Below, in pieces: positions 23,356-23,791 of a stretch of 33,722 nt of DNA. The DNA is taken from positions 1 to 33,722 of the forward strand of contig OMZX01000008.1 of the NCBI GenBank assembly GCA_900315665.1, in the 5' to 3' direction. A program made the position numbers and the translations under genes. Below the pieces are notes generated by a model. The model was given only the letters and a program-made list of their open reading frames with translations, made no database searches and was not told where the DNA came from. Each line of letters opens with the position of its first letter. Positions within the stretch are counted from its first letter, which is position 1. Origin of the DNA: an uncultured Eubacteriales bacterium. GTDB taxonomy: Bacteria; Bacillota; Clostridia; Lachnospirales; Lachnospiraceae.

Positions 23356-23479
23356 AATATATTACCCCAATTGCCATGTTTTGCCGTAATAAAGTTATAA
23401 CATACGCTCATTCTATCATAGATGTAAAGACATTTATAGTCATTTTCGCAATTTTATATGGTGTTATCTAACATTATTT

Positions 23480-23487
23480 GCTATAAT
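23480..23487 (+). promoter_or_regulatory. extended -10 promoter of the toxin-like mRNA
   Basis: TG-C-TATAAT at 23479-23487 forms a perfect extended -10 box; the -35 region (GGTGTT about 23459-23464) is poor. Transcription would begin near 23494, about 96 nt before the small gene. The remaining 23356-23478 is AT-rich and shows nothing else I can name. Confidence 0.75.
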
Positions 23488-23493
23488 AAATGC

Positions 23494-23526
23494 ATGGTGC
23501 TTACCATAACGGTAGGCGGTTAGCCC
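23494..23526. repeat. left arm of imperfect inverted repeat flanking the toxin-like locus
   Basis: ATGGTGCTTACC here matches ATGGTGCTCACC on the opposite strand at 23746-23735 (11 of 12), and GCGGTTAGCCC matches ACGGTCAGCCC (9 of 11). As a result the toxin-like mRNA and the facing RNA start with similar sequence. Confidence 0.75.
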
Positions 23527-23589
23527 ATTCCTTTATTTGTTTTATTATGGGGCATTCGGAAGAACGTCCTAAAAGGAAGGAGGCTGCCC

Positions 23590-23673
23590 ATGAGTGCTGC
23601 AGATGTTATCCAGTTGCTGATTTTACTAACCGCAGTTGCTGGTCTGTTTTTTACAATTGGTGCAAAAAAATAA
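23590..23673 (+). CDS. 27-residue hydrophobic peptide, candidate type I toxin
   Basis: The peptide begins MSAADVIQLL, continues with one hydrophobic helix (about residues 6-24) and ends FTIGAKK. A single membrane helix with a short lysine tail is the usual form of type I toxins such as TxpA, BsrG and the holin-like toxins, though at 27 residues it is shorter than those. A strong GGAGG (23579-23583) lies 6 nt before the ATG. The leader can fold so that ATGGGGCA (23547-23554) pairs with TGCCCAT (23585-23591), hiding the start codon. It has its own promoter and shares a bidirectional terminator with a facing RNA. It stands opposite to neighbouring fchA and coaBC. Toxicity is inferred from layout and composition, not from a known relative. 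Confidence 0.72.
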   Translation: MSAADVIQLLILLTAVAGLFFTIGAKK

Positions 23674-23706
23674 CCGCCCTCACCCCAGCAAAGTGTAGCG
23701 GTTATT
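23669..23706. terminator. shared bidirectional terminator between toxin-like mRNA and facing RNA
   Basis: AATAACCGC (23669-23677) pairs with GCGGTTATT (23698-23706) around a 20-nt loop. On the minus strand it is followed by seven T, on the plus strand by CTTT. It probably also ends the coaBC transcript. Confidence 0.85.
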
Positions 23707-23717
23707 CTTTGCATATA

Positions 23718-23746
23718 CAGGGCTGACCGTCTATCGGTGAGCACCA
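23718..23746. repeat. right arm of imperfect inverted repeat flanking the toxin-like locus
   Basis: Partner of 23494-23526: GGGCTGACCGT and GGTGAGCACCAT. An 8-bp direct repeat CTATAATA lies outside the arms at 23481-23488 and 23754-23761, but it does not abut them. Confidence 0.75.
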
Positions 23747-23757
23747 TTTGTGTCTAT

Positions 23758-23786
23758 AATATAGCACGAATTTAATTATAGTGCAA
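23758..23786 (-). promoter_or_regulatory. strong promoter of the candidate antitoxin RNA
   Basis: On the minus strand TTGCAC (23786-23781), a 17-nt spacer and TATATT (23763-23758) with an upstream TG giving an extended -10. It looks stronger than the facing toxin promoter, as expected if the RNA is made in excess. It lies within 10 nt of the coaBC stop. Confidence 0.8.
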
Positions 23787-23791
23787 TGCAA

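Follow-up and report, generated by a model that had tools for sequence, protein, structure and literature searches.

Introduction

TxpA/RatA and BsrG/SR4 of Bacillus subtilis are laid out as convergent genes with RNAs that overlap at their 3′ ends and a short hydrophobic peptide, and an intergenic locus of contig OMZX01000008.1, from an uncultured member of the Lachnospiraceae, resembles them in this layout. We call the whole stretch analysed, 33,722 nucleotides (nt) long, the window; the locus lies between its coaBC and fchA genes and consists of a candidate toxin gene for a 27-residue peptide and, facing it, a candidate antisense antitoxin RNA. In each RNA of the txpA/RatA pair, the loop of the terminator is described as matching the loop of a hairpin inside the partner RNA (PMC3531473), which is the same arrangement as that of the two stems of the window locus, named T1 and T2 here, and gives a precedent for an mRNA that runs past the terminator of its antitoxin. 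The overlap described for that pair is ∼120 nt and RatA is longer, whereas the overlap in the window is ∼88 nt at most. The type I modules of Clostridioides difficile (CD2517.1-RCd8 and others) are, by description, also among the closest systems.

According to a review of the Clostridia, C. bolteae has TxpA-like and Fst-like sequences (PMC6563280), so type I toxins are not new in these bacteria as such. A first-pass annotation of the window had proposed a new type I toxin–antitoxin locus of the TxpA/RatA and BsrG/SR4 kind; the kind of module is already known and it is the variant that is new, while the proposed layout, convergent with RNAs predicted to overlap at their 3′ ends, agrees with our analysis. 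Its type I interpretation is largely supported by the sequence comparisons given below, from which we consider it probable that a type I toxin–antitoxin module lies between coaBC and fchA, and that it would work like those of the 3′-overlap kind.

The locus in the window

The candidate toxin gene is an open reading frame (ORF) on the plus strand (23590..23673) for the hydrophobic 27-residue peptide MSAADVIQLLILLTAVAGLFFTIGAKK, followed by a stop codon; its frame is kept at homologous loci. Re-reading the sequence confirmed both this ORF and its Shine–Dalgarno sequence, GGAGG at 23579..23583, 6 nt ahead of the ATG. The extended −10 element of the predicted toxin promoter (TGC TATAAT, 23479..23487) is perfect, as had been claimed, but the −35 is poor and the promoter scores 8/12 overall. 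Downstream of it is the conserved 5′ leader of the predicted mRNA (GGTGCTTACC...CGGTAGGCGGTTAGCCC, 23494..23526).

On the minus strand, the facing promoter TTGCAC-17-TATATT (23758..23786) is present and has a TG before the −10, making this an extended −10 as well; it had been called strong, which is overstated because it scores only 8/12. A generic promoter scan with a threshold of 9/12 listed neither window promoter (two sites, against 2.4 in shuffles). The antisense RNA predicted from this promoter at first pass, ∼88 nt in length and overlapping the ORF tail to tail, was recovered by alignment and a covariance model, with predicted ends at 23664 and 23751, and its predicted fold (89 nt) has an energy of −31.9 kcal/mol (z = −3.4). 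The locus would thus hold an antisense RNA gene driven from a promoter of its own, whose product would be complementary, through the overlap, to the mRNA of the toxin.

The two genes share a two-way stem, T1 (23665..23710, both strands), which is the predicted terminator of the antisense RNA. It is an inverted repeat with arms of 13 nt (23665–23677 and 23698–23710) that are 92% complementary and have 20 nt between them; a terminator scan that takes only loops of 3–8 lists nothing at this position. The U-tract of T1 on the antisense strand is the complement of the final codons of the toxin, AAA AAA TAA. A single bidirectional stem had been described for the locus, and T1 is indeed there, but the description is incomplete: a second stem, T2 (23720..23745, plus strand), is the complement of the 5′ hairpin of the antisense RNA, can pair with the leader and is a possible terminator of the toxin mRNA. 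Neither the leader nor this second stem appears in the first-pass annotation.

Homologous loci

Using blastn with the 321-base locus, 7 of the 17 genomes of the genus gave matches, the own genome included, and the non-self matches fell into two stretches of the query: 28–61, which is the leader, and 180–297, from the end of the ORF to the 5′ hairpin of the antisense RNA. An alignment of 24 antisense RNAs has a common 5′ core and terminator. The covariance model built from this alignment (R1; its E-values are rough) matched 182 of 397 family genomes and 111 of 295 in a sample of the order that includes family members (E ≤ 0.01 for both), as well as 25 of 398 in a sample of the phylum (E ≤ 0.001). 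Under strict criteria a leader and an ORF were found at 18 of the 30 best family loci and at four of the seven loci of the phylum search. In these and the following counts the loci are non-independent samples.

An exact 20-mer taken from the antisense core occurs in at least 118 stretches of named genomes, with 80 loci among the matches listed. These 80 loci contain 85 core hits, of which the 75 with enough flank were used to look for the leader: the motif (≤2 mismatches) was found on the other strand at 54 of the 75, against 3 of 1209 control windows from the same loci. Both a leader and an ORF with a Shine–Dalgarno sequence that ends near the stem were present at 46 of the 75, and neither at 17. 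An exact 16-mer of the leader was found 28 times across 24 of the 200 family genomes searched (two for the reversed control); 25 of the 28 sites are within ∼320 nt of a listed antisense match and another is 263 bases from the start of its contig. Carriers of the core among the matches listed include Blautia luti, Coprococcus comes, Roseburia porci, Butyrivibrio hungatei, Fusicatenibacter saccharivorans and many entries named ‘Lachnospiraceae bacterium’. The core was also seen in metagenome-assembled genomes (MAGs) titled Bacteroides sp. or Gastranaerophilales (L103, L153 and L170), which may be misbinned contigs or transfer.

One congener has eight loci. A tandem array with four copies of the antisense RNA was observed on a single contig (G008:C1; L005 positions 15–2046, and L011), with the ORF search finding a toxin at two of them.

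Both promoters score above shuffled sequence, with means of 9.12/12 against 7.46 for the antitoxin (115 loci) and 8.50 against 7.34 for the toxin (117 loci). The 8 nt after T1 hold on average 6.3 T on the antitoxin strand and 5.0 on the toxin strand (71 loci). Comparison thus shows, on the one strand, a putative gene for a short hydrophobic peptide with a conserved frame and its own extended −10 promoter and, convergent with it, a predicted antisense RNA with a conserved promoter, 5′ hairpin and terminator. Where the first-pass annotation had allowed for the lack of a conserved frame, or for the conservation of flanking repeats alone, the frame, leader, facing promoter and stem recur together.

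Pairing of the leader with T2

The comparison also shows that the predicted mRNA leader is complementary, locus by locus, to the sequence just past T1. At 90 of the 117 loci the T2 hairpin could be assessed on the toxin strand, with a mean of −7.3 kcal/mol against −3.8 kcal/mol for shuffled sequence; 5.1 of the 8 nt downstream of it are T on this strand, and the tract of the antisense strand has A and hardly any T. The hairpin and T tract are consistent with termination of the toxin mRNA or, read the other way, with an antisense RNA whose start is rich in purines. The antisense 5′ ends vary at L115, L131, L145, L149 and L177, where an extra hairpin-like stretch (GCTCCTGTGGGGCGTCTG, for example, when read along the toxin strand) replaces the T-rich tract that otherwise follows T2.

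Folding the window mRNA as far as T2 gives 28 pairs between 23494–23526 and 23720–23747 (z = −6.3), and for 71 of the 117 loci the leader–T2 pairing is predicted with a median probability of 0.995 (>0.5 in 93%). Leaders fit the T2 of their own locus best: at 73 of 115 loci, 35 of 1460 cells are unpaired, against a mean of 57.6 and a minimum of 47 in 2000 swaps between loci of one peptide class. The differences between loci favour G–U pairs on the mRNA strand (58 versus 12 transitions; 114 of 117 loci); with the fixed G/A position excluded, the mRNA strand has 78 G–U pairs and 35 unpaired positions, compared with 17 and 96 for the other strand. A helix between the 5′ and 3′ ends of the toxin mRNA, like that of hok/AapA, thus appears to be kept by covariation, if the mRNA runs to T2.

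Pairing of the leader with the 5′ arm of T1 in the short mRNA was given little weight (median probability 0.002). Local stems that cover the Shine–Dalgarno sequence are slightly longer than expected by chance (5.4 versus 4.6 nt). A 7 nt direct repeat, GCGGTTA, is found in the leader (23516–23522) and in the 3′ arm of T1 (23698–23704), so that 7 nt of the leader are complementary to the 5′ arm of the antisense terminator; this could possibly be a second RNA–RNA contact.

The peptides

We gathered 117 distinct ORFs at 112 locus ids, encoding peptides of 22–50 residues (mostly 27–34). The last residue is K or R in 112 of the collected ORFs, and the commonest final codons, CAA AAA TAA and AAA AAA TAA, form part of the U-tract of the antisense terminator on the other strand. 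The geometry of the predicted genes is thus shown by comparison to be fixed, with the KK-stop codons of the peptide forming the U-tract of the antisense terminator. Between pairs of ORFs with 70–99% DNA identity there are 3242, 1290 and 6736 differences at codon positions 1, 2 and 3, respectively, the pattern of a conserved frame under selection. The median ratio of nonsynonymous to synonymous differences (pN/pS) is 0.24 over 569 non-independent pairs, a value that is biased low because the pairs were pre-filtered at a peptide identity of ≥60%.

Several classes of peptide are found on the one RNA chassis (MVSYSDLFQFGILIVAIIGLVYKITKK, MLTIEGLIAVISL.., MDILGLIAVLSFGLTCFGIGYSFGKDSNKTQK and MSDFELLSIMLM..), and few of the collected peptides match any Pfam or NCBIfam model. 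In the MVSYSDLFQFGILIVAIIGLVYKITKK class, four of seven scanned congeneric or related peptides are above the cut-off (23.3 bits) of the putative holin-like toxin family Hol_Tox (PF16935), and relatives of this class match PepG1 (a type I toxin) and ComI (a competence inhibitor) of NCBIfam below cut-off. Among 72 representatives, chosen from 75 peptides by leaving out two doubtful ORF picks and one sequence close to others, five match Hol_Tox at E ≤ 0.01. A search of the own genome with the Hol_Tox model gave no match at E ≤ 10. Matches of relatives to Proton_antipo_N and BcsF, which were odd or below cut-off, were taken as chance likeness of hydrophobic helices.

The window peptide had not been recognised at first pass, and it matched nothing in the family-model searches. 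Its nearest relatives, both 52% identical, are encoded at homologous loci: L029, from another family of the order, and L107, from a rumen MAG. A search for relatives, proposed at first pass, leads to homologous loci that keep the leader, facing promoter and stem, but to few near relatives of the window peptide itself. Searches by tblastn gave no match in phages or plasmids for a congeneric peptide and none in phages for the window peptide, and a peptide profile had no convincing relative among solved structures (best E = 0.15).

The own genome and the coaBC–fchA junction

The own genome has three strong antisense loci. The window RNA matches the covariance model with E = 1.7e-10 in the own-genome search. 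The second, L089 (G000:C16:14847-14939), is a complete locus with a 32-residue peptide of another class, MNVVDLMNVLAFGLACFSVGYAIGKDFSKSQK. The third, L002 (G000:C47:25838-25958), is an orphan antitoxin in which, as read by eye, the RNA and an upstream TTGATA-17-TATATT are kept and the toxin and leader are lost except for the final codons.

The genes that flank the window locus are coaBC, which scores above the cut-off of TIGR00521, and fchA, with a match to NF045657 that is below the cut-off of the model. Both are on the minus strand, so the peptide gene is indeed opposed to its neighbours, as had been stated. Among 11 congeners with a long coaBC match, none has the motif within 700 nt downstream of coaBC, and in three of them (G004, G005 and G007) coaBC lies next to fchA with no module in between. 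The module was thus either gained in the window genome or lost in the congeners.

Proposed mechanism

We propose that the peptide would enter the membrane and be toxic when made. The antisense RNA would anneal to the 3′ region of the mRNA and direct it to RNase III, as happens to txpA through RatA; the analogy with RatA and SR4 makes duplex formation and decay by RNase III the most likely course. Less certainly, the full mRNA may extend to T2 and clamp its 5′ and 3′ ends in a long helix, which could protect both ends or delay access to the mRNA. An invading antitoxin could then displace the leader from T2, because it starts with the leader's own sequence, and a stop at T1, or trimming to T1, might yield an open, short form of the mRNA.

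The co-folding gain with the long window mRNA is −98.6 kcal/mol for the cognate antitoxin, −24.9 kcal/mol for the orphan and −9.4 kcal/mol for that of C16; when internal folding is ignored, the values for the same pairs are −178.6, −104.0 and −82.8 kcal/mol. In this modelling, it seems less likely that the orphan antitoxin silences the window toxin. More broadly, we suggest, tentatively and as a possibility that we do not favour over its contrary, that the window locus belongs to a large superfamily in its bacterial family. One RNA chassis would carry several unrelated membrane peptides and the mRNA would be clamped by the 5′–3′ helix; the antitoxin would start with a same-sense copy of the leader and act by leader displacement plus antisense pairing, and orphan antitoxins may act on related toxins.

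Several observations weigh against these proposals. For the clamp, the outer arm of the leader–T2 pairing has no strand bias (16 versus 12; 80 loci), and the other strand is also better paired than the swaps (169 versus 192.6 unpaired), a comparison in which relatedness is only partly controlled. The clamp does not hide the Shine–Dalgarno sequence in folding (median unpaired 0.26 in the short form and 0.33 in the long form), so a lock of the hok type is unsupported. Strict leader and ORF criteria pick out just 6 of the 27 best order-search loci; the distant matches are thus unproven, and our conclusions are drawn from the family. The window peptide matches no Pfam or NCBIfam family model, Hol_Tox included, and searching 61 relatives with it gave three matches at E ≤ 10: itself, L029 and one spurious-looking frame. 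Finally, both window promoters are below the family means and the window T2 tract is interrupted (ATTTGTGT).

Alternative explanations

The alternative that survives best, although we consider it unlikely, is that the peptide is a regulated, non-toxic small membrane protein with its level set by the antisense RNA. The toxicity of the peptide is our inference, the peptide classes are diverse and the sub-threshold matches of some relatives include the competence inhibitor ComI; however, relatives also resemble Hol_Tox and the type I toxin PepG1, multicopy and patchy occurrence with an empty site is usual for toxin–antitoxin modules, and an orphan antitoxin is retained in the genome without its toxin.

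Somewhat less probable still is that the module in the window is in decay and has lost expression. The low promoter scores and interrupted T2 tract just mentioned could be read in this way, and a decayed locus does exist elsewhere in the same genome, but the frame, the Shine–Dalgarno sequence, both extended −10 elements and the 28-pair leader–T2 match are intact in the window, and the fit of its RNA to the covariance model is still good.

It is quite improbable that the matching ends belong to a small mobile element, as its terminal inverted repeats, with RNA pairing as a by-product. In favour of this, the leader and T2, one at each end of the module, repeat each other in inverted orientation, and the site is empty in congeners; yet both promoters are outside the repeats, the differences between repeats favour G–U pairs on one strand only, no transposase adjoins the locus and its neighbours are housekeeping genes. 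That an ORF arose by chance across a two-way terminator where convergently read regions meet can be dismissed: short ORFs preceded by a Shine–Dalgarno sequence are common and the generic promoter scan gave no excess, but the leader, frame, promoters and RNA are conserved in >100 loci, and because homologous loci share these same parts the locus is not a product of chance.

Comparison with known systems

A type I toxin–antitoxin module of the 3′-overlap kind thus remains our preferred reading of the window locus. Apart from a tRNA, nothing in the nine loci scanned against Rfam 15 reaches the gathering score of a family; the best match of the window, STnc240, is below the cut-off (23.1 of 55 bits, E = 0.57). 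The motifs of the locus, searched as text, were not found in the open-licence papers covered. The modules are nonetheless frequent in genomes of gut-type Clostridia, outside the Rfam gathering scores and mostly outside Pfam and NCBIfam, and with a fixed leader and antisense motifs the loci are easy to annotate. They offer more than 100 natural variants for testing the joint evolution of toxin class, antisense specificity and mRNA folding.

In the Fst/par system of pAD1, as in the window locus, the promoters converge and the two genes share a two-way terminator (PMC7472228). As described there, its direct repeats (DRa/DRb) occur in both RNAs, whereas the long repeats of the window are inverted and the only direct repeat is that of 7 nt; its toxin has a PXXXG motif, whereas the window peptide has no proline. 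Membership of Fst/par was ruled out on the repeats and the toxin motif.

In hok/Sok and AapA/IsoA a long-distance helix between the 5′ and 3′ ends of the toxin mRNA is described, such as we predict in the window, but it masks the Shine–Dalgarno sequence until 3′ trimming activates the mRNA (PMC6733600), whereas folding in the window shows no such masking. If the leader–T2 clamp is true, the window locus would combine control of the hok/AapA type with a 3′-overlap system in which the antitoxin carries the leader's own sequence. The genes of hok/Sok and AapA/IsoA, and the orientation of their antisense RNA, differ from those of the window locus, and we know of no leader copy at the 5′ end of the antitoxin in TxpA/RatA or BsrG/SR4, the systems that it otherwise resembles in layout.
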